From Halichondria panicea (lineage: Eukaryota; Porifera; Demospongiae; Suberitida; Halichondriidae), in contig NW_026986607.1 in the NCBI RefSeq assembly GCF_963675165.1, forward strand, positions 30,771 to 94,770: a stretch of 64,000 nucleotides of DNA. The letters are read 5' to 3'. Position numbers and translations under genes: made by a program. Shown here in pieces: positions 1-43,731 of this stretch (position 1 is its first letter; each line of letters begins with the position of its first letter). Under the pieces are notes generated by a model. The model saw only the letters and a list, made by a program, of their open reading frames with translations. It was not told where the DNA came from and did no database searches.

Positions 1-892
1 ACGTTATCACCACAGAGGTCACGGTGGATAATCAGCTTGCTGTGAATGTAGGCCAGACCACAAGCCATGTCTTTGGAGAGGCTAATTTCACATTTGCTAG
101 AGAGGGACTCTTCATCAAGGCCGGAGAAATAGGATCTCAGATTGCAATCCATCAGCTCAACAACGAGGATTGTACCACCTGATTTGGGGTGCTTAGCAGT
201 CAATAAAAACTGAACAACGTTTGGGTGCTGAAACGACTTGAGAAAATCACTCTCACGATCAATGGCATCGCTAGCATCTTCACTTTTGGTGGCGGGAATA
301 TTTGTCTGCATCTCCATAACAACCTGATGCAATAGTTTGATAGCACAAGGATCGCCTCTGTAGCTGCCTTTGAAGACTGCTCCAAATGCACCACTACCGA
401 GTGGCTCGTCCAGGAAAATGGTCAAATCATCATTGATCTTCTGGTGATTTTGGTCAACTGTAGGGTGTGGGGAGAGTGAGTGGGTGAGGCAGTGAATTAA
501 CAGTGATCATGGGATTATAGGAAAGATTGCTAACAAACATTATATAATATGAATTCCAGCTCAATTAATTGGTACTTATACGTACCCTCTGACTTCACAT
601 CAGTAGACTGTACATGATCTTTCTCGATGGTCCTGGCTATGTAACTGAAGCCCACAATAGGACTAGACAATGCTTTGACAACATCTTCCCAGCGGCTCTC
701 CCCATTTTTCAGCCATTCTTTCAAACCCTCACGATAGCAGTCATCAGGATCATCTCGCCATTTCGTACCTATGCTGTCGATAGTATCCGAGGATACGTCA
801 AGAACAAGCAAGAAGTTTCGCCACTTCACTCGAGCATCGAACGTGACTAAGTACACTTTCTTAAGATCTTCTATTGTGAGATAGTCAGACAT
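1..892 (-). CDS. Death domain-protein kinase gene, 5' part (tandem paralogue, runs off the left edge)
   Basis: Exon 1 (892 to 586) starts at ATG 892 and encodes a Death domain with the family pattern W...L...L.....I.....W...P..CYREGL.EWL. The exon ends in phase 1 before a GTACGT donor. Exon 2 (457 to the window edge) begins in phase 1 and carries the glycine-rich loop GSGAFG, the VAIK-type lysine (CAIKLL) and the HRD catalytic loop region; the DFG motif lies beyond position 1. The stretch 1-888 aligns without gaps to 7936-8823, so this is a duplicate of the last third of the giant gene. Homology stops four bases before the start codon, so this copy lacks the Roc, CARD and upstream Death parts. 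A TATACAG acceptor just upstream of the ATG suggests a spliced 5' UTR. Likely role: Death-domain adaptor kinase (inference). Confidence 0.75.
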
Positions 893-989
893 CTTTTCTG
901 TATAGTGCTAGTGTGGAATACGAAAAAGCAATGAATGTATAGCAAAAAGCAATTATCTAGCACATCCATATGCATACACAGTTAATTGT

Positions 990-5306: not shown

Positions 5307-6230
5307 CTAAGAACTTATAGAGAAGAAATCCACAGTTTGGATTTTAATCTTATTTACTATCTGTCCTCCGGCTACAATAACCTCTCCACTAGGAAGTACT
5401 GAGCATGTGCAGCAGTATCGTACAGTAGGCAGGTCTCCTACTTTCAACCACCTCCTGGTGTCAGGCTGGTAGAGGTGGATCGATGAACTTGGGTTGACTC
5501 TGTCATTCGCTCCACCAACGGCTAATAGTGACCTCCCAATACTGAGAGGAGCTGACAACCCGAGTGGTACTTCTTGTAAGGTCTGCCAGAGAGTGGGTGT
5601 GTCCAGGTTGGAAAGGGCCTTTGTAATGATGAGTTCATTGAGGTCGACGTGGTGCACTGTCTTGGTTGGCCCAGTGTGATCGTACCCTCCCATTAGGTAG
5701 AGGGTGTTTCCTATGAGAGTTGATTTCAGTTCTGATCGTGAGTTAGGTAGTGACTGAGCAATGTACCATCTTCTTGATGCCACGTCCAACACCTCCACAG
5801 AGGAGATACGACCATCACCATCACGCCCACCAGCTACAATTATGTGGTTGTTGAAGGAGACAGCTGTTGAGGATTGACGAGCAATGTTCATTGGTGGGTA
5901 CGGGTGAGTCCATTCCCCTGACTCGAGCACTGAAAGTTGATTGCTGGGTGTGTTGTTTCTTGGATCACGTCCTCCCACTAGCACTAGTCGATTAGCGAGT
6001 GATGTCATACCAAACCACTTGGCAGTGTACTCTGGTAGTTTGGTCCATTGATCTTGCTCGAGCTTCATCACTGTACACACGTTACAATCATCGCCTGCAC
6101 TGCCTCCACCAACATACGCCGTGTCACCGATAACAACACTCTGCACTGTGTAGCCCATCTTGATCGGCATGTCTTTTCCTCTTCTCCATTTCAGAGTGAG
6201 TGGAGGTCTCAACTCTCTTGGAGGGGGATC
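5307..6230 (-). CDS. Last exon of the giant gene: six-blade Kelch propeller
   Basis: Phase-0 exon after an ATTATTCAG acceptor; stop TAG at 5307-5309. Residues about 3018-3325. Six Kelch blades are visible through their double-glycine strands: YVGGGSAG, LVLVGGRDP, IIVAGGRDG, LYLMGGYDH, LLAVGGAND and VIVAGGQ, each followed by the usual W about 10-15 residues later (DQWTKLP, SGEWTHP, SRRWYIA, RRWLKVG). Kelch propellers typically bind proteins or carbohydrates, so this end is the likely recognition surface (inference). The duplicated copy at the left edge probably had its own Kelch part outside the window. Confidence 0.85.
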   Translation of the reverse strand, partial: DPPPRELRPPLTLKWRRGKDMPIKMGYTVQSVVIGDTAYVGGGSAGDDCNVCTVMKLEQDQWTKLPEYTAKWFGMTSLANRLVLVGGRDPRNNTPSNQLSVLESGEWTHPYPPMNIARQSSTAVSFNNHIIVAGGRDGDGRISSVEVLDVASRRWYIAQSLPNSRSELKSTLIGNTLYLMGGYDHTGPTKTVHHVDLNELIITKALSNLDTPTLWQTLQEVPLGLSAPLSIGRSLLAVGGANDRVNPSSSIHLYQPDTRRWLKVGDLPTVRYCCTCSVLPSGEVIVAGGQIVNKIKIQTVDFFSISS

Positions 6231-9200
6231 CTGAATAATGAATGAGCGTAATTAGGATAGTGTCTACTAACAAGCGAGTGTTACTTGTAGCAATAATTGT
6301 ATGCACACTAAATCACTTTTTTGAATAATCGTATGGAGGGTAATGTCGTGGGGCAAAATATTCGTGGTTTTCTAGTTGAAGGTCTGACCACGAATATTTT
6401 ACCCACGAATAAAGCGACCTTGCCTACCCTTCCCAGCAGTACAAGCAGCATGCAACCACGAAATGTCTCAAAATATTACCCACGAAACGTCTCAAAATGG
6501 CTGAACCACGAATATTTTGCCCCCTAAAAATTACCCGCTATACTGAAGCTTAAGAGGTGAAGACCACCAGCCCACTAGAATGTACAAAACTATAACATCA
6601 AAGCTTCTACTATAGCTCTGCAATAATATAATGGTGCATTGCACCTCACCTGTCTCTGTTCCTGTCTCTGTTGAATGATGGCGTCTCTCTTGACCAGCTC
6701 AGCATCTTTGTGCTCCATCTGTTCCCTGTGTGCCTGTACAGGGGAACGTTGGTGGAACTCATAGGAGAATGTAATAATTGTAGCAGTAGACAATTATGCT
6801 ACAGAACTACAGAACAAAATTAATCTTTACGCTAAAAAAATTATGTAACAATGAAACAGCACCCTAAGGAACAGTACTGTTGTTTGTGGCTGTAATCAAG
6901 AATCTCATTCACACACTACATGTACGCACCTTCTCGACTGGTAGAGTGTCCCTCTTTGTTGCCTCCACTGAGTCCGAGTCTCTTGTCAGTGAAACATCTA
7001 AAAGTAAGAATTAAACGTAAAAAACAAAATCGACAAATTTTTCTGAAGTGTAAAACACATAATTATCATGCACTAGGTACCGTCAGGAGCACATTAAGAG
7101 GAGTATGCAACTCCCACGCACATGCATTCCATCACTAACACTTGTAGTTGTGTAAACTATTAGCCATGAATAAAATTAAATGTGGGCTGGAGGTACAAAC
7201 CACACGTGTGTGTGTGCCGATATCTAATAACCACTACACCTACGCACCCACTTAAGATGTGGTCTGATAGTGACGTGGTATGACATGCTCCTACCGTAAC
7301 CTGGTTTACACTACAACTGCTACAGTTGGATACTCCTCTTAATGTACTCCTGGTACCGTATAGCGCGAAATTTTAGAGGCACTTATATTAATTTTCGTGG
7401 AATGGCCTCTAAAAGCATTTCGTTGCACAATGTTCGCGGAATGACTGCTTACCGGAAGCCAAGCCTTTAAATCTTTGCACGTTATAGCAGATAATTCTAA
7501 TTAAAGAATAATTTTCGTTGACTTAATTTTTGTGTAGGATTGCTAACCCACGAAATCCGCGCTATACAGTATCTAATAGACTCACAGATGTCCCTGGCAG
7601 ATGGTCTCCTCGTCATGTCTTCTTGCAAACAGCTGTCGATAAGCATCCTCAACCTGTGTGTGTGAGGGATCTGGGCAACATGGAATGATCGATCCTTGGC
7701 TGATTTGATCGTCTCTAACTTGCAAACAATCTGCGTCAAAATCACCCCAAAAGAAAACACATCCAGGCTATTATCGTAATTCTCCTCTTCCAATCGATAT
7801 GCCTCGGGAGGTAGATACCCTCTACGCTGACCAATGGCTGTGAGGGTGGAGCTGAGCTTGGAGGGATCGTATAGTCGCGACATACCAAAGTCAGAAATCT
7901 TTGCAACAGGCACTGGCAGTGTCAGCTTCAGCAAGACGTTATCGCCACAGAGGTCACGGTGGATAATCAGCTTGCTGTGAATGTAGGCCAGACCACAAGC
8001 CATGTCTTTGGAGAGGCTAATTTCACATTCGCTAGTGAGGGACTCTTCATCAAGGCCAGAGAAATAGGATCTCAGATTGCAATCCATCAGCTCAACAACG
8101 AGGATTGTACCACCTGATTTGGGGTGCTTAGTAATCGACAAAAACTGAACAACGTTTGGGTGCTGGAACGACTTGAGAAAATCACTCTCACGATCTATTG
8201 CATCGCTAGCATCTTCACTTTTGGTGGCGGAAATATTTGTCTGCATCTCCATAGCAACCTGATGTAATAGTTTGATAGCACAAGGATCGCCTCTGTAGCT
8301 GCCTTTGAAGACTGCTCCAAATGCACCACTACCGAGTGGCTCGTCCAGGAAAATGGTCAAATCATCATTGATCTTCTGGTGATTTTGGTCAACTGTAGGG
8401 TGTGGGGAGAGTGAGTGGGTGAGGCAGTGAATTAACAGTGATCATGGAATTATAGGAAAGATTGCTAACAAACATTATATAATATGAATTCCAGCTCAAT
8501 TAATTGGTACTTATACGTACCCTCTGACTTCATATCAGTAGACTGTAGATGATCTTTCTCGATGGTCCTGGCTATGTAGTTGAAGCCCACAATAGGACTA
8601 GACAATGCCCCCATCACATCTTCCCAGCTTCTCTCCCCACCCGTTAGCCATTCTGACAGTCCCTCACGATAGCAGTCATCAGGATTGTCACGCCATTTCG
8701 TACCTACATTGTTGATAGTAGCCGGGGATACGTCAAGAACAAGCAAAATGTTTCGCCACTTAACTCGAGCATCAAACGTGACTAGGTACACTTTCTTAAG
8801 ATCTTCTATGGTGAGATAGTCAGCCACAGAATGTTGTTGCCTACTTGTTTGAGCATCTGTTGTCTTCAGGACGACTTCATTTAATCCACTCTCATACAAG
8901 ACAGTAACAAGTTTATCTCGAGTAGCATCTTGCCCATCTCTTCTCTTCCACTCGTTGAAAAACCGATAAATCTGCTCTTTGAGGTCTCGTTCATTGGCAT
9001 ATTCAATTGATTGAATATCAATTTCCGTAAAACCAAGACTTCTGGCTAGGACCATCCAGTCTCGTCCAATGTGGTCAGAGACTTCACTGATGAGGGCATC
9101 CACTGACTCTACAGCATAGTCAGCATCAGGGGGCTCCAAGATTGATGGGTCTATTGCAATGGGATTCATGGTTGAGGAGGAAAGTGCATATCTCTCAAGT

Positions 9201-12200
9201 TCTTGAACAATTTTATCATGTCCTCGATGCTCCTCACTGGTCTTAAACAAGCAATCGTAGAGTAGGGCAAAACCATTTTTACCTCCATTTCTTTTTGTTA
9301 GATTGAGAAGATTAGATATTTTAGTTGAATTATCAAGATTCGGCGATTGTACAGAATCGACGTCAGCCCGATGTACCAGACGATATTTGAGCAAGTATGG
9401 AAAGAGTGTGGATATGCTAACAAAGAGTGTGAGGTTAGGGAGACACTCTTTAAAGACATCTTCAGTCATGGAATACCGTTCAATCAGGGAGTCATCAATC
9501 AGGGAGTCATCAATCAGGGAGTCATCTGAGGATAAAAGAAAATAGTGATTATAGCTGTATGAAGTAGAAATGAGAAACATGATCTAGTATGAACGGCCCT
9601 ATAATTATACTGTACTTTTAGAGCCTCTGCATAAAGTTAAAATTATACCTGATTGTTTCAGATTCGAAATGACTTGTTGAACCTCCTCCCAGCTTGGGTT
9701 GTGATGAATGTGGAACCATTTTCTGATCACCTCCATTAGTGCGGCATCCGTGTCTTGGCGGCACTGTACTGTTATGGTTTCCAGCGCATCACTCTCCAAG
9801 TTGAAGAGCATTCCCACTTTGTACCACGAACTAGACCATGGAATGAGTTCAGCAAACACGTTGTGAACGGTAACTGCGTCAGCACCTATGTAATTATACA
9901 ACCCAAAATAGTGATCAAGTTTTAATAATTAATTTTATACTTACTATCATGTATCTTGGTAAACCAGATGTCTTGAGTAGAAAAAAGTGCAAGCTTTTCA
10001 TTTGTAGCAGAACATCTCCAGTGACCCTCTGTGCTAGGAACGATCATGTGTGTGTTGTCAACCTGACCACATGTGCAGTGAAACCCCACAACAGGAAGAG
10101 CTTGACCAGTAATGTGAAACGCTTCTGCGGCTTTGTTTAAACCAGTAACAATTGCTGTTCTGATAAATGGTAGAAACTCATAATCTTGCATCGAATTTGA
10201 ATTGATATAAACAGTTAGTTCAGCATCTTCCTTTCTATACACATTTATGAGAGCATTGACTCCGGGTAGAATGAATTGCACAAAACTTTTGAATAGATCT
10301 CGACGAACATCAATTTTCCATGGCCATGGGTGACCATTGTACTGTGAGCACAAGTAGCACATGATGTATTCAAAACAACCATGGGCTAATAAACACTGGA
10401 TCACAAGTGGAGCAACTTTGGTATCTTTCAAACCGGAAACAAAGCTGAAAGTTTCAACACTGACTTCTTCCCTCAGTAAGCATGGCATCAAGAATAACGA
10501 ATTTTTCATTTCAATTAACAGATGTAAATCTTTAAAGAGGGATATTGCTTCTTTACATGTGAACAATCCTTCAGCATACATTACTTCACAAACTTCAAAT
10601 GCAGAGAAGGGAATAATAGCTCCTCGATTATGTTGTAGGTCAAAAAGGTTTATCTTTGCAATCAATTGGATCAATACGGTCGAATCCTTAAATATCACAT
10701 TTGGAAGAACATTGCCAAAGTAAAGAATCACACCAGTTATGTGCAGGCTAAGTAAGGCAATTTCAAGATCAGTTTCTGACATTCTGAATTCAGCAGCAAT
10801 AGTCAATACTTCTTGCTTGCTAATAAAGTTCCGATTGTATTGTTGCATAACTTTCTTGATAGCGTGACCAAGCATGTGCCAGAATAAAGAGACTTGCTTC
10901 AGTTCACTCAAATCCAATGATGATACTAGCTGTCGTTCGATGTTTTCTATCTCCCTCAATGATTTGCCTACTTCAAATACTTCTTGTTTTCCATTTTTAT
11001 CAGCAATTAATTTGGCTTGCTCATTATCCCTAAAGAGAATTTCACTATTTTTCTCAATCGACTCAACTTCTGCATGTGTTTCAACGACCATCAGTTTTGT
11101 TGCTAGCATACTGATGTCTTTTATTAGTTGCTTATTAGTAAAAGATACATCTGCTTCAATTTCAGTTTCGGGAACTAAAATTTTCTGAAGGATTATTTTT
11201 CCTTCGAGATCTTGGCTCAAACTCATACAGTTTATGCCTATGGCGATGCCTTTAAGGAAAATTGGTAGTACATTCAACAACCAAACATCAGAGCAGCATA
11301 CGCAATTAATAATGTTCAAATTATCAAAATCTTTTGTAAGCGATCGATCGCGATTTACCATTAGTTGTAAAATATTCTCAGGAGAGACACATTTTAATAG
11401 ACTCTCTTTAGGTATTGGCTCATAGATTAGAATCTGATTAGAAGTGAGATGCTGTGGGGAGTTTCCAGCAGGTATCGATCTTGGTACTTCAACTTCTTTA
11501 CCAACAGATTGAGCAGACCTTTCTTGCTTATTTCGATCACTTGCAGAGTTTTCACTTGATGTCTCTTTGGGTCTTTGCTGTAGAAAATGTTCATCTGGCT
11601 CGGTTTGGCCAAGCACTATATTGGGTTGTTGGATGGAATGTTCATCTGACTTGTCATTTTTAGCTCCCTTTGGAGTCTGTACAGCTGCATTACAAGCAAA
11701 CACCATATCCGAATCATCATCGTGTAAAGGTTTAATCTTTTCATCACTGACGGTATAGTAACTAAATTCAAAGCTGGGATCCAATGAGTGTGGTGATTCA
11801 AAAGGAGTAAAGTTCTTATCCATAATCAAACGCTTGCAGGTATGGACATCTGATCCTGGCAGTCCAGTAAAAAGAATTGTTGTGAATCGCAGACCAAACT
11901 TCTTTCCTTTCATCGCAGCCTCAAATCTAGCCTCAGCATCTGCAACAATAAATTATTATTGGCTGTATAATTATATAGTAACACCATTATAATTTACCTT
12001 TTAGAGTAGCTATCTTTGGATGATGTTCATCACTCAACCATATTTTGTGGGCAGCAGTGAGCTCCATTTGTTTGCCAGTATGTTCACCACATGTTACATG
12101 GTTATCAGTTGCAAATGGCAAATAATTGAGAAAGTGGATGCTAGATAAATGTTCGGAGCAAGAACATACAAATGTTAAGCGCATCGATTTCGTATTGATA

Positions 12201-15200
12201 ACTCTTTGCAGCTGCACATTAAGAGTGGATACAATTTGAAGACATAGGTCAATATGGGGAATATTGTCATCAGTAAGTCCATCAAAGTGAGCTCGAACAC
12301 AATCAATAAACTCAGTGAACACAAGCCGAAACTGGTTATTAATTTCAAACGACACCATGTTCTTACAATTTATAAAATCGGGTGACAGTTTCCATATTAT
12401 TCTGCCTTTTTTGATTCCAGAAAGTACGGTCATTAGTCTTGGAAAAAAACCTGGTGGTATAAACTTAGAGATTGGAACCAAAAACAGTGGTGCCACTTGT
12501 AAATCGGCTGGTAATACAGAACAGGCTGAAATTCTCGTATGAAATACATGCTGATGATTAGGACAAATGGGAAGCACTTGGAGCATAGACGGAATAAAGT
12601 AGCTTTCCAGTAAAGGCATATGCATTGCTAAATGGTGTTCATCAAAGAAGTTTAGAATCCATGATAGCGGGAGACCAGTCTTACTATCCTCTAGAAGCTT
12701 TTTACCAACTTGGACATTCAGAATACCCTGTGTTTGAAGACTCTTCCATTGCTTAGGATGATCCTTATACACTTGGGGATCAAGAATAGTTCCAAGAATG
12801 GAAAGTAGGTTCTTAGGCTCAACAAAAACATATTCTTGGAGCATTTTCTTGTTGTGATACCATATGAAGATACCAAGTTCATGAAAATAGCAAAGAGCTG
12901 CTCTAAGGTCTGTTTTACACTTTTTAGCTATTTCACTAGCTTTTTCAAATGTCACAATTCCTGTGCAAGGCTGTTGTAAACATGATTCTCGTTCTAGATC
13001 AATCTTGAAAGCAATCCATTTGCTAGGTATTTTTGCTTTGGCACTCTTTGTGCAGAAAACTATTTGCTCTCGCAAAGTTTTCATTCCAGGATCATCATAC
13101 TTTGCTCCTGATTGTGTGTTGTCTATCTCAAACATAAAAGAGTTGGGTGTAGAAGTTGAAGGCAAGATTACCTTTTCATGAAAGTTCGTTCCTTGAGAGT
13201 TCAGATTGAGTTTTAACTGAAGGAGCATTTGATCCAAGTCTTGCTTGTCATCTACTTTAATCTGATCTTTGAAAGTACCGATAAAGGCTATTTTAGGAAA
13301 AACCGTTGCACTAGCTAATTCGAATACTCTCTTCTTTAATATATCTGGAAGGTTGCTGAGATGCACATCCAGTGAATTAGAGTCTAAGAAGGAAAGACTT
13401 CGATACAGGTAATCAGTATATGTGTAAGGAGACTCTCTCTCTATTTCAAGTGGGCAGGTAGGTCTAATGGAAGCGTTAGAATTTTCCAACAAATCACAAA
13501 GTCGAACAACAATACCATAAATGGATCTAACTTTGGCGAAGCAAGGAAGAAGATCTTGAAACATTGGTTGCCCTCCTGTGTCCCAGAGAGTGAGATAAAT
13601 ATTATCTGGGTCGCTCTTATAAACACTGTCGTACTTCTTAAATACCACGGCGCTTTTCTTGGAGTCTATTGTACTTTCAAATGTTTCTTGGTAAAGCAGC
13701 TCCGGCTCCATTATGATTGTGCTTTTCTCCTTATCATTAAAGGGAATGTTCTGAAGATGCTTTCTGATGGACGTCTTTCCAACTCCCGTGTGGCCAATGA
13801 GAAGCATGTGCAAATGTGGTACCTCCAAATATTCAGAATCTGCTAGTTCAAAAGTAGCTTTCATTTCCAGGCTGGTTTTCTCCAACTCTAAATCGTATGA
13901 ATAATTATAATGACATAGATAATTGCTGTTACTTATAATAATACTTACTTACCTAGTATGTGTTCTAGTTCTTTGGCAACATCTGCTGTACTTGAAGAGC
14001 CTCGTTTATTGTCTGGGAACCACCTGTGCTTAAAAACGTTGAAAAGAATGTGGTTGTCAGGTAGTTTAGAATCGCTGTTGCACTGTTTACGATGAACCAT
14101 CAAAAGAAGACTATCGTTGAGCCAATTCAAGCTGGGTAACTCTGGTTGGGTGTTGAGTTCCACTTTATGGAAGTAAGATTGCTCATATATAGGTAAAAAC
14201 ATAGCTTTTGTGTCATTAGTACTATATTTGTGTACAAACAGAGATTCTGTAGTCAATTGAAGGGTAATATTTGGTGAGAACCCAAGAACACTAATAGCAG
14301 CATTCAATAACAATGAAAGCTGTTGTATTTCAGATAAGGCCTCAGATAAAAAGCAATACTCTTTTAATGGTTGCTGAACTTCAAACAGGACAACAGGGTG
14401 TGAATAGAGTTTAGTATCAAAATGAATGCATTTTGCTGGCATTACATTGGGCTTATTCGTTTGCACATCCTCGATGTATTTGGTGAATTTCAATTTATCA
14501 CCTTCACCATTGTATACTAATGCCATACATTGCTGTCCATTGTGAAGAGCTTTCCAGAGCGAGCATGGAGACACGTCTAGGTCCATTTCCTTTTGTAGTT
14601 CAAGTTTAGTTTCACAAAAAGTGTTGAGAATTTGATTGTAGGTTACTTCCACTTCAGATCCAGGATCTACAATAAAATCAACTATCATACTGAATAATCT
14701 AAAAAATAATTTACTTGCCTGTAAAAGTGTATTCAATGTCCGTGGTATCAATATCTGCCTCTTCTCCATCAATTGTCTCATTGTCTGCTTCACTACATGT
14801 ACTGCTGATCTCACCCATCCCACTGCTATCGAGACTAGACACAGAACCTGCATAAATTAACAAATGACATGCATAGCTTACAAGTACCGTATATACTAGT
14901 ATATACTTATACCACACTTACGTCACCACTCATTGGTCAACAGCTGTAGGATATTATAGCCCAGGCATGCACAGTTTTCAAGTTTTCAAGAAAGTAAGCA
15001 AAGACGGTTCTAAAACTCAAAGCAACGGCAGAAACACGGAAGCTGCTCTCCAACAAGATGGCTAAGCTTCCATGGCACGGTTAAGATACATTTTATCCAA
15101 GAAATCTTGCAACTCCAGTAAGGGACGTCGAATGGTCAACGCTTAGCATCTGTATAGGAGTTGACGTGTTGCTCAACTAGCTCTTTGATGGCTTGAAGAA

Positions 15201-21200: not shown

Positions 21201-24200
21201 TCTAGGCTTATTAGGGGACTGGGCGTTTAATCGCGAACGGCTTGTTTTCATTTGAATATACGCCCATTCGCGGCCTCAAATCGAGGTTTACACTTTGCTC
21301 TATGACAATTCTTTAATTTTAATACATACTTTTAGTATGAACATTTCATTGACAACAACAATGTTATAAACTAATGCGTGAGTATGATTAAAGCATGACA
21401 AGAGAATGAACACGAAGAAGTGGACTCTGACTCTATTCGTTGCTTGTCAATGTCAGATGTTAGCAGAAACTTTCCGAAGGATGGTAGGTCACACTCCTAC
21501 AGAGCAGCTATCAGGTACTTTGTTTCAGAAACCCAAGGCAAGGTAACCTGCAAAATTAGCGTGTGTGATAACTTTCTTGGACTTTGTGTTTTCCTTTCTC
21601 AGCATGTAGGACTACTTGTTCCCTGCATATACATCTTTAAGAGAAAACTGATCCATACAGAGAAAGTTATATGTCTGATCTTGGTCCAGCAAGGAGTATA
21701 GTCTTACTATATCTGCTACCTAAAACTTCCTTTCTTCGTAGTTAACATGTGACATTCAGCTACTGCGCATGCTCATCTCTTTATTCTGGGTGGGCTTATA
21801 ATCGAGTGAAAATACCCTCGTGCAAGAACTTCAAAGCAAAAGAGGGGATGGGCGTTTATTCAAGATGGGCTTATTTTCGCGAGGGTACGGTACATGCATT
21901 TATCGCCTTTATCGTGTATATGAACGTGTGCTATGATATTTGTTTATGCATAATCATGTAAAAGGGCTTGTAGAATAATGAAAGCACTGCGGGTGCTATA
22001 CATGTAGCCTCTACACAGGCTCTCCTTTTTCTGTTCTTTATCACAATCGTTCAATAAGATAAAATACTGTATTATTCGTTCAATGAGATAAAATACGGTA
22101 TTAATTGGAGGAATAAAGAAAGAAATAGACGTAAAGTTAGGAAAAAGGAGAGCCTGTATCGGGAAGTCGCGTGAGGGTAGAAGGGTGGTAGAAGGGTGAA
22201 AATGAGCGTGGGCATACTGAGCTAGAGATGTTGGACTGCCCACGCAGAGGTCTACGACTAGTAAAACTTTGCCTGCTGCAAGCTGGACATGGACTTGGAA
22301 CTGGAAGTTTGCAAGCACTATAGCTAGCTATACCTTAGGCTTAGCTAGATGATCTACTAGTCTAGATTGTATGTTTAGATTCTATCACTATTACCTTTTC
22401 TTGTGTCTTTCTACATGCTATAGTAGAATAGCTTAGTCATCATTATCATATAGCAGGTAGCTACTGCCACCAGAGCTGGCCACGCTGGTTCTCTGATCTG
22501 ACTTGCAGCACAGCTTGGTGGTTGTCTCAGTGCAGTACAGTACAGTCTTACTCGGAATGCGTGGGAGAATACCTTACGTCACGATTGTGGGCTACATATC
22601 GCCCACGTTCATAAAAATCCTTGTGGATCACGCGATTTCCCAAACCAGGCCTTACGTTTTCTTAACTGTACGCCCATTTCTTTCTTTGCTGCCTCACTAT
22701 GTCTTTCTTATGTTTATGGATGAACAGTGACAACAGCAAGAAAAAGTAAGGCCTGGGAACGAGGCTACTATACATGATGCCTCGGTGAAGGTGTAAAACT
22801 TACATATTAACATAAAGCTGCTTTTATATACTAGCTCTTTGACGGTTGCAAAATCCGGCATATAGTCTTGTTCTTTTTGCAGTCTGCATCGTGGGATTGA
22901 ATTTTTGCTAGGGGGAGGTCCTTTTATAGTGCTGCGGTCACGTGGTATATAAGTCAGATATGCCACACCTACTCGGAGAATATGCACCCTATATATCCTC
23001 CGCTACAGTGGTTACATACCCCTCGGAGTAACCATGCACAGTAACGGAGGATATAATTATGGGTGCATGCATATCCTCCTCTTATAGGTGTGGTATATCT
23101 AAAACAATTTTCGTGGGCTTAATTTTTGTGTAGGATTGCTAACCCACAAAATCAACGAAAATTAAGCCCCTCGAAAATTTAGCGATTTACGGTGTATACA
23201 TGCAGATGCTCATACATGCAGATGCTCAAGAGTTTAATAAAGATTATGAATCTCATTAACGCTAAAAGTAATTATATATAGAGATTGTACCTTGTAGAGC
23301 CGTGTAGACCTGGATATCATCAATGGTGATGGATAGAAAGCCATTATTTGCTAAGAATTCAAGTTCTTTTCCTTGCTTCAACTGTTCCTCTATTGAGCAC
23401 GCCAGAGAAGGAGGGACGTACAAGATGATGCTTTTGACACCACCTGCCACAAGAATAAATTCCTGAGATAGGGAAAATCCTTTCGAAAAAAGTTTGCTAG
23501 TTGTCTTCACATCATACAAAGTACAGTCTTCCCATTTTTTGCATACTTTTTTAACGACTATTCGTTTCAACTTAACCATTGATGGCTTTGCAATTAAATA
23601 CGGCCAATAGTCAACAAAATCGCAAAGTTTAGTTTTAATAAGAAATGTTTTCCTTTCACTCTCATACTCGGCTAGCTTCCTCAGCAAAGGATTGTCTGCT
23701 TCAGTGAACATAACTCGAACCACGTGTTGGAAGAGCTCATAGTTCAAGAAATCCCAGAATTGATTTAACTTGCCCCATATCTCTGCGAGCATGTTCGCTT
23801 TCTCGAAGCATTCTTCAACATAATTTCCTGTAATGTGCTTTAACGATACACTCATGCTCGTTACAATAGCATAGAAATTGTCTACACTAATGCCAGATTT
23901 CTTAATTCGTTGATACCCTTCGTTAGTTAGCAAATTAAAGATCTCCTCCAGGTGTTTAACTTGGTCATCCAGGCTTGAGTAATCTGAGCCTGCAGGTAAT
24001 GAATTAACTGATTGTTCAGGTTACGAAAATCAATACTTACCAATTAGGCCAGTTTCTGATAAAGGAGACGGAAATTTAGACTGCTTTTTGCTCATCATTC
24101 CTATTGAAGAGCAAAAAAAGTGATCATTTGCTGAATTAATCAATAATAATTATGTTATAATTATTTGGGTACCAATTCTCCACTCCTCAATCTTCTCCGC

Positions 24201-26731
24201 CACATCCTTACGGTCCACGGTTGGAGATCGGAGACAGTCACACACATCCCTCCATGAGAGGGGGCCACCAGAGTGCAGACGTTTAATCAGCATTTCACGG
24301 AGACAGGTGTCAAGATTTTGGCTGTTTATTTCGTGGATCGCACTCAAGTCGTTACCATCAATGTTCAGGTTCAATCCAATATTGAACCATTTAGTACGAG
24401 CAGGATAGAGTTGTTTATGCAGTGGTGAAAGGTCATCACATATATCTGTGTGCGTGTGGGTGTGTATGTGTGTGCATGCTCTGCGCACTTAAGGCCCGGG
24501 TCCAGATTTTAACACCAAAATTTACACTATGTTCATACTGCTGTATTATTTGCAATATACAGTGTATGCTGCATCAAAATGATCCAAAATGAAGCTCAAT
24601 GTTTTCTTTTTCCAAAAAACTAATTAGCTTAATTCAATTATGCTAATTAGTCCCATAAATGATGATGACGTCATGCCACTTTCAGAAAGAGAAGTGCAAA
24701 TACGGCGTTGAAGATGCCAAGATCAAGCTTTAAAAACAAGGCTAGATGAACATCTCATAGCTAGGTACTAGTATCCTTGATGGGAAGAGTAGGAGTTATT
24801 GTATTCTTGAGATACACAAAATAGCCTACCTCTAGGGTGGCTGTCAGAGCTAAAGAAGCTAGCATAGCTAAGAAAGTTTTGGACATTTTTACTTCCCATC
24901 AAGGAAACATAATCATAACAACATAATCTATCTTTTGAGGGCCTAAACAGCTACTCTTACCTTGTTTAAGTCCGCCGTATTTGTTGCCAAAGATAATCTA
25001 TAATAGTTCTAGCAGCTAGCTAAGCAAATACATTGACCTTATGACGTCATGTGCAATGAATAACATTAATAAACATTATGAATCTCATTAACACTACATG
25101 ATCTACATGATCTACATAAAATGTAGGCAATGAATAAAATTAATCTTATCAGTGCCTGACCCAGGCCTTAACTGCCCAGAGTGCTGTGCAACAATATCTT
25201 GTAATGATTCCACTAACAAAATTCATGCCCTCATACACGATTTCTTGGAATGTGTTTTATTTGTTACACTGTACTTTCCCCCATGTTACCCTCATCCACC
25301 ATGTTGAGTAGGCCAAAGAATTTACTATAAAGAGAACAATACTTCAGTCCTGTGAATAAATTAAAAAGCTATATATACCGTAGTTAACCGTCGAACCGCC
25401 CACCTGTTTTGATGGCTTCATTTAGGCTATAATGGTGTAGCTATAGGATTGGATCATAATAGCAAGCAAATACCTGGTGTAAAGTATAACTGGTATAAAG
25501 TATATCCAATACTGCACAGCTCTCATTTAGGCTAAACAATTAAGGGGTGGGCGGATTTGATTATGTGGCTACTAAACCGTGCAAGCACCCATCCAAGAGA
25601 GTTGTGCTGGTACTTTCTGTGAAAACTACACAGCTCATCTTCTATACAGTTACAGATCACATGCAGAAGACACTCTGCCACAAGAGAGAAAGGGGCCTGA
25701 ACTGAAAGTAGACCATGTGTTTTGGTGTTTAGAAGAAACAGTCTCTTTGAACACTTGATGTCTGTTCTAGGATAGATCTACTATAGTAACTTTTAAAGTC
25801 TGTTTTATGCATGTTTATAATGAGCTACAAGCTATTTAATAGCTCCACACAGTGAAAATCTTGCATCGTGTTGACATTTGACCTAATTATATGCATGCGC
25901 AATAGTGGGCGCTTCTATACGATTGCAATTAGGCCTCTACAAGACTTTCAGGCAAAAGTAGGGGATGGGCGGTTATTTGATATGGGCGGTTTGACAGTTA
26001 ACTACGGTACACACAAGTGATAGTAAACTGATACAATTGATCAACGTGTTAATTAAGTTGCTGCATGTGCAGCTACAGATCTGTTATTATGCCTCGGTGC
26101 GCATGCGCAAGCGAGGTATACGGTAGTGCAGTGGCGTAGGCAGAGGGGGGCTGACGGGGCTGGAGCCCCCCCCTTTTGTGTTTCATCAACTCCAAACCAG
26201 CTTGAATCACCTTGATCTGTCCATAGATGTGATCTGTCAATCTATTCTGTCAATCTATTCTGCAACTGCACTGCATGTGTTACTAGAATGATGTCATTCT
26301 CAATGGAAATGTGGGCAGGGTCATCTACTCATCTACTGCGCATGCTTACTGCTGATGAATACCGTATAGCGGGTATATTTCGAGGGTATAAATTTTCGCG
26401 GATGGACCATTACAAAGGATTTCGCGGATTTTATTTTCGTGGTCTGAGTTCCAGCCTTTTGGCGCATGCGCACATCAACATGCAGCTGTACCTCCACATC
26501 GTTAGCCTCAAATCCATAATACTGAACACACCTACTATTACAAATTTTCGTGGGTATACATTTTCACGGTACAGGCTCAATCCGCGAAAACCGCGAACAT
26601 TTATACCCTCGAAATATACCCGCTATACGGTAGTGATGACCTTTTTTTTCTAAGCTATTCAGCGCCTGCTCCTGGCCCTGCTCAATGGATTTGAGCCCTG
26701 CCTTTCCCAAAATCCTGGCTATGCCACTGGT

Positions 26732-26788
<57 letters not shown>

Positions 26789-32700: not shown

Positions 32701-32825
32701 ATTTAATTATGCCTCGAGGCGTAGTTAAATTAGGTATTGCACTGCAGTATTTATAGCTTGCCCCACTCACCATCTAGTGGCGATGCCTCTCCACTGTCGA
32801 CACCGTGTCCACCACCAGTAGCCAT
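5307..32825 (-). CDS. Giant Death / Roc-COR / CARD / kinase / Kelch gene (17 predicted exons)
   Basis: I joined 17 exons: 32825-32771 (candidate), 24445-24173, 24100-24041, 23989-23291, 20958-20157, 16637-16498, 16046-15951, 14847-14719, 14666-13953, 13887-11998, 11939-9945, 9885-9649, 9525-8521, 8392-7586, 6997-6930, 6733-6650, 6230-5307. All junctions keep frame and total 9978 nt, 3325 residues plus stop. All but one intron use GT-AG. Domain order: Death, two unnamed modules, linkers, pseudokinase, Roc-COR, Roc-like-COR, Death, CARD-like, Death, Death, kinase, coiled coil, Kelch. No signal peptide or membrane segment was seen, so it is probably cytosolic. Family knowledge: Death/CARD oligomerise, Roc-COR is a GTPase dimer, Kelch binds partners. 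The receptor/scaffold role is inference. The internal chain from exon 2 on is firm; exon 1 is tentative because of the 8.3-kb intron. Splitting into two transcripts cannot be excluded. Confidence 0.7.
6329..6543. mobile_element. MITE of the GTATAGCGGG family
   Basis: Inverted ends of about 40 bp: GTATGGAGGGTAATG... with GGGGCAAAATATTCGTGG at the left, and its diverged complement ending CCCGCTATAC at the right. It sits in an intron of the giant gene. Confidence 0.75.
6650..6997 (-). CDS. Two small linker exons of the giant gene (coiled coil)
   Basis: Exon 6997-6930 completes the kinase-exon codon (phase 1) and encodes an acidic linker (YVSLTRDSDSVEATKRD) ending in phase 0. Exon 6733-6650 (phase 0-0) encodes a short charged heptad-like helix, AHREQMEHKDAELVKRDA followed by IIQQRQEQRQ. 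Both have consensus acceptors and donors. They connect kinase to Kelch, and the helix may act as a rigid spacer or dimeriser (inference). Confidence 0.75.
7076..7357. mobile_element. TIR element with tRNA-like internal boxes
   Basis: Ends GGTACCGTCAGGAGCACA and the complement of GGTACCAGGAGTACATT, each continuing with TTAAGAGGAGTAT.CAACT. The minus strand carries GGTGTAGTGGTTA (A-box-like) and GGTTTGTACCTCC (B-box-like), suggestive of a SINE part. A truncated inverted copy lies at 27643-27840. Confidence 0.6.
7358..7568. mobile_element. MITE of the GTATAGCGCG family
   Basis: Left end GTATAGCGCGAAATTTT and right end complementary (AAATCCGCGCTATAC). It directly abuts the previous element and lies 18 bp from the kinase exon donor. 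Part of it (ATTTTTGTGTAGGATTGC) recurs at 23115-23150. Confidence 0.65.
7586..8392 (-). CDS. Kinase exon of the giant gene
   Basis: Symmetric phase 1-1 exon, residues about 2699-2967. A complete, apparently active protein kinase domain: glycine loop LGSGAFGAV, ATP-anchoring lysine in CAIKLL (about 2739), conserved Glu in DRESDFLK, catalytic loop IIHRDLCGDNVLL (Asp about 2845), DFG (about 2866), APE-like YLPPEA and the C-lobe RRPSARDI. The catalytic loop HRDLCGDN fits the TKL/tyrosine-kinase-like branch better than classical AGC or CMK loops (family knowledge; branch not firmly assigned). It follows two Death domains, as in IRAK/RIP-type signalling proteins. Confidence 0.88.
8521..9525 (-). 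CDS. CARD-like, Death, Death exon of the giant gene
   Basis: Phase 1-1 exon, residues about 2363-2698. It begins with three DDSLI repeats, then a CARD-like six-helix region (TEDVFKECLPNLTLF to GHDKIVQELE), a Death domain (SDHIGRDWMVLARSLGFTE ... EWKRRDGQDATRDKLVTVL) and a second Death domain (YLTIEDLKKVYLVTF ... WRDNPDDCYREGLSEWL ... SWEDV). The last Death domain is the part duplicated at 586-892. CARD assignment rests on length, helix pattern and position, so it is less certain than the Death calls. These modules assemble homotypic signalling complexes. Confidence 0.8.
9482..9526. repeat. 15-bp minisatellite, three units, at an exon edge
   Basis: Three exact copies of AATCAGGGAGTCATC encode DDSLI repeats in frame on the minus strand, starting at the splice acceptor. 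Confidence 0.95.
9649..9885 (-). CDS. Death-domain exon of the giant gene
   Basis: A 237-nt symmetric phase 1-1 exon encoding a single Death domain: VHNVFAELIPWSSSWYKVGM, CRQDTDAALMEVIRKWF and PSWEEVQQVISNL carry the conserved Trp and leucine spacing of helices 2, 5 and 6. One domain per symmetric exon fits exon shuffling. Residues about 2285-2363. Confidence 0.8.
9945..11939 (-). CDS. Second Roc-like/COR exon of the giant gene (degenerate P-loop)
   Basis: A 1995-nt phase 1-1 exon, residues about 1620-2284. The N-terminus reads TTILFTGLPGSDVHTCKR where the first Roc has LIGHTGVGKTS; the GK[ST] of Walker A is gone and the DTGGQ strand is not evident, so nucleotide binding is unlikely. A polar, low-complexity linker follows, then a COR-like winged-helix region (LFWHMLGHAIKKV, VILYFGNVLPNVIFKD, LLIQMKN-type helices) and a Cys/His tail (FHCTCGQVDNTHM, WRCSATNEK) that mirrors the tail of the preceding exon. 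It is most simply a tandem copy of the 11998-13887 unit that kept its COR scaffold. Confidence 0.65.
11998..13887 (-). CDS. Roc-COR GTPase exon of the giant gene
   Basis: An 1890-nt phase 1-1 exon, residues about 990-1619. Walker A/G1 GHTGVGKTS near residue 1021, G3 DTGGQPMFQDL and a G4-like IGTFKDQ mark a Roc-type GTPase. After it come a COR-like region with the helix-turn segment ACGLAYF-equivalent RAALCYFHELGIFIW, the FVEPKNLLSIL strand and the LPLSWILNFFDEHHLAM helix, then a Cys/His tail (FVCSCSEH, VTCGEHTGK). In LRRK/DAPK-type ROCO proteins Roc-COR is a dimeric nucleotide switch controlling a kinase; here an active kinase lies about 1100 residues downstream in the same chain. G1 and G3 look intact. 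Confidence 0.8.
13953..14666 (-). CDS. Pseudokinase-like exon of the giant gene
   Basis: A 714-nt phase 1-1 exon, residues about 752-989. The C-terminal half resembles a kinase C-lobe without catalytic residues: LSEALSEIQQLSLLLNA (helix E), NITLQLTTESLFVHK where HRD/N would lie, no DFG, and a final RGSSSTADVAKELEHIL in the position of RPSF..IV..L. No glycine loop or lysine is evident. I call it a pseudokinase by inference; an unrelated alpha/beta fold is possible. Confidence 0.45.
14719..16637 (-). CDS. Three short acidic linker exons of the giant gene
   Basis: Exon 16637-16498 (phase 2 to 1) encodes a Ser/Asp-rich stretch (EIKPSTVPEDLHSQKVRDIS). Exon 16046-15951 (phase 1-1) carries a basic-acidic patch (GQRRRSLPSDEEVETLSKRP) that could serve as a nuclear-localisation or phosphorylation segment. 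Exon 14847-14719 (phase 1-1) is strongly acidic (CSEADNETIDGEEADID). The last one ends ACAG followed by GCAAGT, a GC-AG intron. No domain is recognised; they look like flexible spacers. The 1.1-kb intron between 14848 and 15950 shows nothing else. Confidence 0.6.
17066..18100 (+). pseudogene. BEL gag remnant
   Basis: Starts MTDAEVSTRKKRIRTGHKAS at 17066. The DUF1759-type gag core follows (LPHFNGDLMKWPTFWDSYES), then a zinc-knuckle-like CSYCQQSHSSTDCK near 18062-18100. Frame changes of one base occur near 17245 and 17693. The corresponding gag of the intact relative at 43732 has the same order. Confidence 0.8.
18126..18944 (+). pseudogene. BEL integrase C-terminal remnant
   Basis: Reads RAPWSGGVFERMVKSTKR, matching the RAPHFGGLWEAAVKSVK region of the intact BEL integrase at 48660-48720, then HFWNRWRTEYLAELR and the SIGDVVIVY barrel. 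Frameshifted in at least two places. Everything between gag and this point is missing, a deletion of most of pol. Confidence 0.75.
19143..19819 (-). mobile_element. Mariner/Tc1-like element inside the BEL LTR
   Basis: Inverted ends CAACCTTTTTCACCTCA and the complement of TGAGGTGAAAAAGGTTG, flanked by TA on both sides (19141-19142, 19820-19821), the target duplication of this superfamily. Further inverted identity (TGTACATA.CTGAGGTCAATTAG region) makes the ends over 100 bp long. Confidence 0.8.
19452..19681 (-). pseudogene. Transposase N-terminal remnant (helix-turn-helix)
   Basis: Starts MGEPGRTKSYHENLRWRM near 19681, shifts frame by one, then continues IKEAVDRLFVAEATVWRV, a helix-turn-helix typical of mariner/IS630-type transposases, and ends TGDVSANKASPREY. 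The DDE catalytic region is absent, so the element is non-autonomous. Confidence 0.6.
19876..20123. mobile_element. MITE related to the GTATAGCGGG family
   Basis: Imperfect inverted ends: ATACATACAGCATTTTCG at the left and the complement of ATACCATTATAGCGGGAA at the right, both continuing TTTTCGTG.GGTGCAAA. Confidence 0.5.
20157..20958 (-). CDS. Unnamed module, copy 2, of the giant gene
   Basis: An 802-nt exon (phase 1 in, phase 2 out), residues about 363-629. It opens with a small Cys cluster (CPYCQKC), then helices (TLFPYLNTPALSKEDRSVL), the landmark LRPYKSFLNYKIVNSIVLEF, and ends with LFPPTVSQLASLCEAGISIF. The same landmarks occur in exon 23291-23989 (FWDFLNYELFQHVVRVMF and VPPSLACSIEEQL...GFLSI), so the two exons are tandem copies of one module of about 230 residues. 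I recall similar sequences beside Death domains in sponge and cnidarian proteins but cannot name the family. Confidence 0.6.
21160..21888. mobile_element. Non-autonomous TIR element
   Basis: Inverted ends TACCCTCGCGAAAATAAG (21162 on) and the complement ending 21887, about 22 bp perfect, followed by looser complementarity. The open frame at 21420-21701 is not recognised and is probably incidental. Confidence 0.65.
22005..22290. repeat. Dispersed repeat A, copy 1
   Basis: Contains GGCTCTCCTTTTTCTGTTC, a GGAGGAA.AAAGAAAGAA core and AAAAAGGAGAGCCTG, then GAGCGTGGGC. The same blocks recur at 52850-53060, 53385-53590, 56890-57150, 57681-57830, 58720-58915 and 59345-59400. Confidence 0.7.
22955..23103. 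mobile_element. Long palindromic MITE
   Basis: Inverted ends around AGATATGCCACACCTA and its complement at 23086-23103, with further complementary blocks (ATATGCACCC.ATAT, TCCTCCG, GGTTAC). A further MITE arm with TTTTCGTGGGCTTAATT lies at 23104-23195. Confidence 0.55.
23291..23989 (-). CDS. Unnamed module, copy 1, of the giant gene
   Basis: A 699-nt phase 1-1 exon, residues about 130-362. Helical, with landmarks FWDFLNYELFQHVVRVMF, LRKLAEYESERKTFLIKT and a closing VPPSLACSIEEQL ... NNGFLSITIDDIQVY. It is a tandem relative of exon 20157-20958 and directly follows the N-terminal Death domain. Function unknown; position suggests a partner-binding or regulatory segment. Confidence 0.6.
24041..24445 (-). 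CDS. N-terminal Death domain and basic linker of the giant gene
   Basis: Exon 24445-24173 (phase 1-1) encodes a Death domain (ARTKWFNIGLNLNIDGNDLS, CLREMLIKRLHSGGPLSWRD, IEEW). Exon 24100-24041 (phase 1-1) encodes a basic linker (MMSKKQSKFPSPLSETG). The acceptor lies in a CA-rich tract (24446-24480). The upstream phase-1 partner is not adjacent; the best candidate is 32771-32825. Confidence 0.75.
24446..25375. other. Intron sequence without recognisable content
   Basis: AT-rich. No open frame of note and no clear inverted repeat. A short stretch (TATGAATCTCATTAACAC near 25078) resembles 23246-23262. Confidence 0.5.
25376..26009. mobile_element. Non-autonomous TIR element, 634 bp
   Basis: Ends TACCGTAGTTAACCGTCG and the complement of the right end (TTGACAGTTAACTACGGTA), about 27 bp with two mismatches. 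No coding capacity. Confidence 0.7.
26360..26632. mobile_element. Nested MITE, TACCGTATAGCGGG family
   Basis: Inverted ends of over 40 bp: TACCGTATAGCGGGTATA TTTCGAGGGTATAAA at the left and its near-perfect complement at the right. The best-preserved copy of this family in the window. Confidence 0.85.
26734..26787. repeat. (GT)n microsatellite
   Basis: Nearly pure GT repeat in the spacer between two inverted CAGTGGCG elements. Confidence 0.95.
27643..27840. mobile_element. Truncated copy of the 7076-7357 element, inverted
   Basis: CAGGAGTACATTAAGAG, AGTATCCAACTGTAGCAG and the internal block GTGGGTGCGTAGGTGTAG match the complement of 7190-7357. The other terminus is missing. Confidence 0.65.
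27832..27989. mobile_element. Small palindromic MITE
   Basis: Ends TAGAACACACCTAGCCAAG and its exact complement at 27971-27989. Inner blocks GTGTTTTAAT and GGATGGCCTC are also inverted. TA flanks are included in the termini. Confidence 0.75.
28075..28416 (+). pseudogene. Possible remnant of a KIAA1958/QRICH1-like (Crypton-derived) gene
   Basis: The open stretch begins SFSRFVDPVTDAKEKEIRSK and continues WTDWACSR. This resembles the N-terminal signature of invertebrate proteins that precede a Crypton-derived DUF3504 domain (RF..PVT...I......P..T......W..W). The match is from memory and short; the following residues are not recognised and the catalytic part is absent. It lies in the 8.3-kb intron, opposite strand. 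Confidence 0.25.
28417..28929. other. Unassigned AT-rich sequence
   Basis: Nothing recognised apart from simple AT-rich stretches. Confidence 0.4.
28930..29270. repeat. Imperfect tandem repeat, about five units of 55-75 bp
   Basis: Units begin GCTGCTCTGACCTG and end TCCATCTGA. The minus strand is open in short runs with a recurring QVRAAQMETFE motif, so this may be a decayed coiled-coil-coding exon (29202-29414 adds ESCAWAQELAILRNEDSD). Coding status unproven. Confidence 0.5.
29271..31274. other. Unassigned intron sequence with two hairpins
   Basis: 29818-29879 is a hairpin with arms GATCACTTTGTTGGAGAGC and its near-complement. 30084-30150 is a single arm of the GCGGGTAATTTTCGTGGG MITE family. 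The rest shows nothing recognisable. Confidence 0.45.
31275..31545. repeat. Inverted-repeat element
   Basis: Arms TGTTGCCTAAGAAATTC near 31293 and its complement near 31510-31530, with ATCATC blocks outside. Confidence 0.5.
31938..32085. repeat. Palindromic element
   Basis: GGAGGTACGACAGGCGCG and AGCAATTAGCC at the left, with diverged complements (AGCGCCTGCCGGACCTCC) at the right. Confidence 0.6.
32234..32629. mobile_element. Foldback element with AGTCTGGG ends
   Basis: Outer arms GTAGTCTGGGGGCCAGACC and the complement of GGTCTGGCTCCCAGACT. Inner arms GGTCTGGAGACTCTTGCAG (32296) and its complement near 32553-32572. Confidence 0.65.
32771..32825 (-). CDS. Candidate first coding exon of the giant gene
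   Basis: ATG at 32825 opens MATGGGHGVDSGEASPLD and the exon ends in phase 1 before GTGAGTGGGG. Phase 1 matches the Death exon at 24445. No stop, acceptor or competing ATG exon with phase-1 output was seen between. The 8.3-kb intron makes this assignment inferential; it could belong to a different gene. Confidence 0.45.
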
Positions 32826-37207: not shown

Positions 37208-37230
37208 GATCCGTTAGTCCTCGTCGCCAC

Positions 37231-40213: not shown

Positions 40214-40958
40214 CTAATAAGTTAAATCTACAGTTGATGTTGCTGACTGAAGCTCAGGAGCACTGTCCATTGAGGTGAGCAAGAGGTTAGAAGGGGTTAC
40301 CCTATCAAAATGGCATTCCAAAGTATGAATAAGCTCTATGTGGTAGCCCTTTGGTGGTGAAAGCTGAAGGATCTTATTAAGTACTAAGTCTGAACATTTT
40401 TCTTGTTGATGAAAGTGCTCGTTTGGTCGATAGCAAATCCAATGGTAACGTTGGCTGTCTGGTTGCTTACAGAAAATGTAGATTTCTGTCTTCAACAAGT
40501 TAGCTGCTGCATAGATTTCAACTTGCGTACCCCAATATATCCAATAGCTTCCATTTTCTTGCAGTGAGCCTCAAGGGTACCATCAAATACATATCTTTTA
40601 AATAAATGGCTGCTTTCTCGTGTGTGTCGGTTTGTCGGACTGTATGGTGAAATTTTTCATGGCCCAAGATCTCTTTGGAAAGTGCTCTAAACAGACAATT
40701 TCCATCAGCTTGAATGTAGTCAATTCTCCGTTGTTTTCCCAGCATATTCTGAAATAGTTTATATCCTTCTGTGTTCGGTGCAGGATTAATAATGTATCTT
40801 GTTTCGTGTATATGATCTGCTGTCTTTTCGCTTCCCAACAGAGACAGTGAAAGCTGGCGTCTGTAACTCCGTACCATTACCTCATGTGTTGAGTAAAGCC
40901 CACCTGAACTTGGAACATATTGCGGAGGGACAGGAATATCTGCATTGGGTAGCTTCAC
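40214..40958 (-). pseudogene. OTU-type cysteine protease of the MULE gene
   Basis: Catalytic Cys motif DYIQADGNCLFRALSKE; then, after two frame changes, YVFDGTLEAHCKKMEAIGY, an ANLLKTEIYIF strand and the catalytic-His end GYHIELIHTLECHFDRV. The order fits OTU deubiquitinases carried by transposons. Frame changes near 40630 (one base) and 40537 (two extra bases, AT) inactivate it. Confidence 0.75.
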
Positions 40959-43688: not shown

Positions 43689-43731
43689 CGAACGAAACCA
43701 AAACATTTAGTATACTTCATTCTTATCTCTT

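Follow-up and report, generated by a model that had tools for sequence, protein, structure and literature searches.

The minus strand of the 64,000-nucleotide stretch of Halichondria panicea DNA analysed here (hereafter, the window) carries a gene whose predicted frame is best read as one fused chain, since no stop is found at the junction of its two parts, the start codon and leader of the downstream partner are gone, and a sister locus on contig C6 is modelled as a single chain of 3215 aa. On balance, we judge that this gene is probably a mosaic, in which a ROCO gene became fused to a Death-kinase-coil-Kelch gene, and that it is a member of a germline-diversified family of recognition receptors. 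The evidence base is one genome assembly (131 Mb, 39 contigs), and contig C28, the source of the window, is short (94,770 bp) and presumably unplaced.

Gene model

The rebuilt model comprises 17 minus-strand exons running from position 32825 down to 5307, with consistent phase and zero stops, and measures 9957 nt (3318 aa). A preliminary description of the window had joined seventeen minus-strand exons into one frame of consistent phase and 9978 nt; the rebuilt model agrees with it, the longer figure being obtained with an alternative donor of exon 6 that lies 21 nt further. Fifteen of the 16 introns are GT-AG and one, after exon 8 (14718/14719), is GC-AG, and 13 of the 16 borders are in phase 1. 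Exon 1 (32771..32825) contributes the start codon and MATGGGHGVDSGEASPLD, and its 18 residues, together with the GTGAGT donor, are identical in C1 and C4. Exon 3 (24041..24100) is a short linker exon, exons 6 (16519..16637) and 7 (15951..16046) are candidate exons encoding linkers, and exon 8 (14719..14847) encodes an acidic linker.

Retroelement-like frames were seen by eye at 17.0-18.9 kb of the window, in the intron between exons 5 and 6, as were Gypsy-like polyprotein frames directly upstream of exon 1 (33265-37213), a BEL/Pao-like polyprotein in two adjoining frames (43711-49239), and putative Ulp1-type and OTU-type protease frames (63134-63733 and 40518-40985, respectively). The window also contains a 21/63-bp minisatellite at 62567-62793, with 10.7 copies of 21 bp.

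The junctions of exons 8 to 12 were aligned in five loci, namely the window, C6, C1, C10 and C12. The lengths of these exons are divisible by three in 5/5 loci, AG acceptors are present at 25/25 sites and GT or GC donors at 24/25 (the exception being exon 12 of C10), and the GC donor after exon 8 is common to all five, window counted; the exon 13 acceptor is unresolved within this alignment. Frame and splice sites of exons 1-3 are kept in C1 and C4, and those of exon 4 in C4. The donor of exon 5 is kept in C1 and its acceptor is not; exon 6 is interrupted in C1, and exon 7 was not found there in the comparison with the window.

Predicted proteins share many of these junctions. P0131, the protein of the C6 locus (whose cluster of 11 members may include one from the window), has the junctions from exon 8/9 through 12/13 and that of exons 14/15 in common with the window gene; it uses an earlier donor in exon 13, and its exon 16 begins eleven residues sooner. 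The same earlier GT is present in exon 13 of the window, where its use would skip Death2 in frame. P0131 and P0133 also link upstream modules to exon 8. The neighbouring array gene on C28 encodes P0001, which has the Death2-kinase and kinase-exon 15 junctions in common and the same entry into Kelch, and is without exon 16. Two positions had been named in the preliminary description at which the gene might be divided. The split at 9.9 kb was ruled out, as all five loci, and P0131 too, keep the exon 11-12 junction. A division at 16 kb appears less likely, and it retains some probability because exons 6 and 7 have no support in C1.

Among predicted proteins of at least 1825 aa, none from C28 was listed in the database. 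The database annotation may therefore split or omit the gene, and a shorter annotation of it is possible, since the range 1275 to 1824 aa falls outside the protein listings.

Domain content of the predicted protein

Each block of the protein had been taken to be recognisable, and a domain search exon by exon had been proposed as a check. In this search, Pfam matches over cut-off were obtained for Roc in exon 10 (11998..13887; 2.2e-10), Death in exon 13 (8521..9525; 1.2e-17), Pkinase in exon 14 (7586..8392; 7e-37) and Kelch_1 on the frame surrounding exon 17 (5307..6230; 6e-27), the last exon encoding a six-bladed Kelch propeller with a hypervariable face. COR was recovered twice: COR-A matched exon 10 (E 8.8e-7) and exon 11 (9945..11939; E 2.5e-4), both under the curated cut-off, and full-length P0131 over cut-off (3.9e-13), while a profile comparison (hhalign) of exon 11 with the COR of exon 10 gave a prob of 97.7. 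The candidate CARD gave zero Pfam matches in the exon scans, and exon 2 likewise gave none; the pseudokinase came out weak.

The GTPase motifs GHTGVGKTS (P-loop) and DTGGQ are read in exon 10, and against solved structures this exon gave small-GTPase matches that are weak (best E 0.061). The Roc of exon 11 has no P-loop in its sequence. Considering this and its COR match, the duplicated Roc-COR holds, with a degenerate second switch. With Roc and COR in tandem and the GTPase motifs, the window protein has the features of ROCO membership.

Death-type domains occur at several places along the chain. Exon 2 (24173..24445) is Death-like, with 35% identity to Death2 (E 4e-11) and a match to exon 12 at E 2e-6. 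Exon 12 (9649..9885), also Death-like, is touched by Pfam Death at E 0.12. Exon 13 encodes a helical part (the putative CARD), the Pfam Death domain and then the Death2 of the array gene. By its catalytic motifs, CAIK (Lys), HRDLCGDN and SDFG, exon 14 would encode an active-type kinase. In exon 9 (13953..14666) a possible pseudokinase was compared with a kinase set (hhalign prob 44.8, E 2e-4); Pfam kinase matches the relative P0134 at E 0.003, under cut-off, and an AlphaFold model of exon 9 has a mean pLDDT of 40, too low for use, so that exon 9 is a weak candidate for this fold. Exon 15 (6930..6997) is a linker, joined to exon 14 in the same way in P0001 and P0131; exon 16 (6650..6733), whose acceptor is uncertain, is a short charged segment, a candidate coiled coil with a longer relative in P0131.

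Exons 4 (23291..23989; no fold assigned) and 5 (20157..20958) encode two modules with 36 and 111 genome matches, respectively. The second gave a weak match to PF20694 (TRADD-like_N) at E 0.16, which is only a hint of a link to TRADD-like domains; genome searches with PF13820 and PF20694 returned zero matches, as did their controls, and thus do not show that the domain is missing. A cluster of frames of ~240 aa at C8:6.71-6.76 Mb, several of them matched by both the exon 4 and the exon 5 queries, suggests that the two modules are related; compared directly, they gave no match at E 0.01. LRR are absent from the Pfam scans of the window exons (short linkers not scanned alone) and of P0131, P0133 and P0134, and in the window exons and the same three proteins no Pfam match to BTB or BACK was found.

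ROCO relatives and the fusion seam

The Roc-COR of exon 10 has 44 matches in the genome, and those stronger than E 1e-20 amount to 15 pieces, distributed over 11 loci: C28, C6, C12, C4, C1 (twice) and C10 (five times). Among the matches listed, an array kinase lies nearby at only C28 and C6 of these 11 loci; no array kinase was found when 30-40 kb at C1, C10 and C12 and 6 kb at C4 were compared directly. This distribution bears on the explanation that the protein is a conserved hub of housekeeping or stress signalling, the preliminary description having suggested a candidate immune or stress signalling hub. Roc-COR, Death and kinase domains are frequent in stress signalling in general, but when five further ROCO loci were sampled (C1, C4, C6, C10, C12), the kinase was present at C6 only, and the hypervariable Kelch loops described below are ill-suited to one fixed partner. 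An old conserved hub was rejected on the distribution of the kinase, and we give this explanation very little probability.

The ROCO genes of C1 and C10 end past the Death domain with a stop of their own (C1 ...HSVYL stop, C10 ...DVKKS stop), the end of the C1 gene reading ...CATTCTGTG-TACTTATAA. At C4, homology to the window gene stops within exon 13. C6 has the same ROCO end, including the stop TAA, and runs directly into an array-gene intron. In the window, G-CTGACTATCTC comes after CATTCTGTG; it belongs to the Death2 exon of an array gene, just past its ATG. This fusion seam (8826..8827, no strand assigned), at which the ROCO coding end is joined in frame to the Death2 exon, is resolved to 1-2 bp, ROCO homology ending at 8825 and array homology starting at 8826. 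The ROCO stop is gone, the ATG and leader of the array gene are gone, and the frame is continuous. Because the array-gene start codon and leader have been lost, kinase and Kelch could be produced only within the fused chain, barring translation from an internal start.

The alternative that two abutting genes, one ROCO and one kinase-Kelch, were mistakenly read together appears improbable to us. It would agree with the C1 and C10 ROCO genes, which stop near the position of the seam, and with the array gene of P0001, which starts with its own ATG: the 5' part of this next gene (Death2 and kinase) occupies positions 1..907 of the window on the minus strand, its Death2 begins ATG-TCT-GAC, and its remainder lies on C28 beyond the window, the gene as a whole being predicted to encode 702 aa. 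It does not agree with the seam of the window, where precisely these stop and start signals are missing and the frame runs through, nor with the sister on C6, which is modelled as one chain. We therefore retain the single fused chain.

The C6 locus is a physical sister fusion of the window gene. Its exons 11-14 have 92-99% identity to the window, and the 3215-aa chain predicted from it, P0131, is spliced from a donor before the ROCO stop into the kinase. The two seams differ, being placed in the coding part of exon 13 in the window and in an intron at C6; as C6 retains the ROCO stop, its type is not derived from the window type by simple deletion. With P0131, the database already contains a predicted protein that combines Roc, COR, Death, kinase and Kelch. 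In the literature searched (few subscription journals being covered), no description of the gene, the family or a sponge Kelch system was found; the preliminary description had likewise known of no described protein with all these blocks together.

The ROCO gene of C12 extends into another Death domain and a diverged Kelch (21.6% identity), without the kinase. The region C12:5091517-5098931, with ROCO, Death-Death and diverged Kelch and no kinase, is annotated as LOC135345186 (P0132, P0133).

A 2A/StopGo-like motif, GD[VI]ETNPGP, was observed near the N-terminus of ROCO relatives and is present in P0131, P0132, P0133 and P0134. Of its 13 genome matches, nine precede Roc-COR exons by ~4-16 kb in the same orientation (C6:716594; C12:5109224 and 5112012; C10:1211819, 1224148, 4273788, 4324132, 4383802 and 4421467); the backwards control gave 0, and a six-frame search found none in the window. 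2A-like signal sequences occur on sea-urchin NLRs. Such sequences with recoding activity have been reported (PMC4981915, in the part consulted of which sponges are unmentioned).

Probable mosaic origin of the gene

Identity between the window gene and its relatives switches along its length. With 200-bp bins, identity between 14,900 and 12,101 (14/14 bins) is 92.0-99.5% to C1 vs 81.8-93.0% to C6, and between 11,900 and 8701 (16/16 bins) it is 92.0-100% to C6 vs 71.3-92.4% to C1. Among the sites that separate C1 from C6, 296/331 are C1-like on the 5' side and 474/492 are C6-like on the 3' side, the best-fitting break falling between 12069 and 12051, i.e. at ~12,060. This recombination breakpoint between ROCO paralogues (12051..12069, no strand assigned), where the informative sites change from C1-like to C6-like, lies within exon 10. 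The 5' flank up to 32.9 kb is C1/C4-like. For the Kelch exon, the closest copy is that at C6:527-531k: identity to it is 98.7-100% both in the 5 bins fully contained in the exon and in the next 4, but drops to 82-91% immediately upstream of 6.28 kb. Several other copies have 91-99% identity to the kinase exon (the kinase of C6:527-531k is outside the compared stretch). Given these switches along the ROCO part, the Kelch exon and the kinase exon, the gene would be a mosaic of at least three sources, and probably four. As judged from its sequence, it appears to be a recent mosaic, rather than an old hub.

The same switches could be produced by an assembly misjoin, in which case C1/C4-like, C6-like and array sequence would have been put together wrongly in C28 and the gene would be an artefact. 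C28 is a contig of only 94.8 kb in a repeat-rich array, and the identity switches at ~12,060, 8826 and 6.28 kb are sharp. Near 12,060, however, each of the two sources shows, on its wrong side, a difference of roughly 10-20% to the window, which long reads would separate easily. The parts of the gene are identical to no source examined, save for stretches of the Kelch exon. Since, in addition, the join at the seam is exactly in frame and C6 independently places a ROCO gene beside a kinase with a different seam, the misjoin is less favoured, and we regard it as quite unlikely; a genuine mosaic gene is preferred.

A kinase-Kelch family with a diversifying Kelch face

The downstream partner belongs to a large family. 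At least 126 genome matches were scored for the kinase exon, out of 889 candidates, and at least 126 for the Kelch exon, out of 465; most lie in arrays on C1 (15.5-17.4 Mb), C6 (0.4-0.8 Mb) and C28, and P0001 represents a kinase-Kelch gene without ROCO. Among the matches listed, 113 of the kinase have at least 70% identity, and 46 of these 113 contain a stop in the matched stretch, a count which overstates broken kinases because the ends of the kinase query are intron-derived. For the Kelch exon, a stop is found in 4/126 listed matches.

The two exons evolve differently. For the kinase, dN/dS is 0.21 among 8 copies (28 pairs; range 0.10-0.39), vs 0.79 for the Kelch among 7 copies (20/21 pairs, one with dS under 0.03 being dropped). 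In 44 database segments, some of them isoforms of one locus, 29/29 hypervariable Kelch columns map to two loop registers that recur from blade to blade. Counted from the final G of a blade's double glycine, one register covers residues -16 to -15 and the other +1 to +9; for the GGG motif of blade 1, the second G was taken as reference. Random shifts of the blades reached the observed statistic in 0/20000 cases. Over 9 copies, pN/pS is 1.75 for loop codons vs 0.43 for the framework, with dN > dS in 33/36 and 0/36 pairs, respectively.

In order to reduce circularity, columns were picked using 28 segments taken from 31 C1 proteins, and the test was then made on the 9 DNA copies of C6 and C28. The 27 columns defined in this way give a pN/pS of 2.14 vs 0.60 elsewhere, with pN > pS in 36/36 pairs, and a laxer set of 42 columns gives 1.97 vs 0.53, with pN > pS in 34/36 pairs; with either set, pN > pS occurs in 0/36 pairs for the codons outside the set. 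These tests are pairwise counts on 9 copies (two partial), with non-independent pairs and without a likelihood model. The Kelch face undergoes diversifying change, and the suggestion of the preliminary description that Kelch is the sensor gains strong support from its hypervariable loops. By the pairwise tests, the family has what is expected of diversified recognition receptors: many copies, a diversifying sensor and a conserved signalling part.

Exons of the window gene were also compared with their nearest relatives, from which they differ by few changes: dN/dS is 1.69 for exon 2 (7 changes), 0.68 for exon 5 and 0.67 for exon 11, and exon 13 has four non-synonymous changes and no synonymous one. 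On these small numbers, constraint in such parts of the gene looks low, which speaks against the proposed reading.

A real and recent fusion could also be non-functional and on its way to a pseudogene. Its mosaic structure from similar copies, the absence of an own leader for the kinase-Kelch part and the stops among close kinase relatives noted above would be in line with such a fate, which the 3318 stop-free codons, the kept splice sites and a kinase dN/dS of 0.10-0.39 in 28/28 copy pairs argue against. We consider this outcome unlikely, while leaving it a real share of probability, and continue with a functional receptor-type gene.

Proposed mechanism and significance

In the mechanism that we propose, a ROCO gene composed of Death-like domain, modules, Roc-COR, degenerate Roc-COR and Death-type domains would have lost its stop and joined an array gene in frame. 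The ROCO part would itself have arisen by recombination between two paralogues, one of C1/C4 type and one of C6 type, and the array partner would be a Death-kinase-coil-Kelch gene from the large tandem family. In the resulting protein, the Kelch face may bind a ligand that differs between copies, the Death-type domains may gather chains, the Roc-COR pair, one intact and one degenerate, could set a GTP-dependent threshold, and the kinase, with its catalytic Lys, HRD and DFG, could pass the signal on.

Sponges tell apart microbes and other sponges without antibodies. To our knowledge, their recognition receptors are largely unknown, and an allorecognition receptor set has long been sought. Judged by its architecture and selection pattern, the window gene is likely to serve in recognising microbes, symbionts or other sponges, and an immune or stress function is what we infer for it. 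In H. panicea challenged with LPS, expression changes affected GTPases as well as kinase genes, a number of the latter having Death domains, as given in the part of PMC8242945 drawn on here; these changes fit the recognition reading, without naming the genes studied here.

More tentatively, about a hundred germline-diversified Death-kinase-Kelch genes, in which recombination reshuffles sensor exons and captures ROCO switches, could form a receptor set of the sponge for allorecognition or symbiont discrimination, a proposal that we put forward as possible. If true, ROCO capture by in-frame fusion would give receptors with a built-in GTPase switch. A large kinase family that combines a conserved output with a propeller varying at its apparent substrate-contacting loops is a testable receptor candidate, and the fused gene illustrates how a recognition system could gain switch modules, the seams recording the process.

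Comparison with known systems

ROCO proteins are sorted, in the part of PMC6337361 used here, by LRR, by a C-terminal kinase, and by DAPK1 with its kinase first. The window protein has the ROCO tandem and, from its predicted domains, appears to fit none of these groups as described there; the new ROCO architectures of C28, C6 and C12 would stand outside them. Like group 2 (LRRK1/2 and the Dictyostelium Roco kinases), the window protein has its kinase C-terminal to Roc-COR in one chain, and as in LRRK1/2 a beta-propeller follows the kinase. It differs from group 2 in the absence of LRR before Roc in the Pfam scans, in a propeller that is Kelch and not WD40, in the Death-type domains between COR and kinase and in the second, degenerate Roc-COR. 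With group 3 (DAPK1) it shares Roc-COR and a Death domain without LRR, whereas the kinase of DAPK1 precedes Roc-COR in the account of PMC6337361 consulted, and the window protein would have its active-type kinase after it and a candidate pseudokinase before it.

Within the same genome, P0131 resembles it in uniting Roc, COR, Death, kinase and Kelch in a single chain of 3215 aa, and differs by another N-terminus with the 2A-like motif, the absence of Death2 and a seam in an intron. IRAK and plant receptor kinases couple an adaptor domain or a diversified sensor to a TKL-like kinase; the sensor of the window protein, unlike theirs, would be Kelch. Of the natural proteins with solved structures, Keap1 and KLHL12 rank among those most closely related to the propeller. 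Ser508/Tyr525 and Ser555/Tyr572 of Keap1 presumably hold the same place relative to the double glycine as the hypervariable registers. These registers are 17 residues apart, as are the ligand-contacting Ser508-Tyr525 and Ser555-Tyr572 in the part of PMC6891428 drawn on. In contrast to KLHL proteins, the window protein has no Pfam match to BTB or BACK, and its Kelch is joined to a kinase. The candidate immune receptors of brown algae, which are LRR-ROCO proteins, show ROCO exon shuffling and diversifying selection in the sensor; their sensor is LRR, and LRR-ROC-COR is said to be their sole domain structure (PMC11378527, part consulted).

By analogy, the closest published parallel in spirit may be the expansion of TRADD-N proteins in Amphimedon, which, in the section of PMC8195603 devoted to it, comprises 357 proteins, most with Death-like units and variable tails including kinases. 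The TRADD-N match of the window protein is weak (exon 5 only), and Roc-COR and Kelch are unnamed in that section; the common plan would be one in which Death-like units at the N-terminus are combined with a module and with C-terminal domains that vary, kinases among them.
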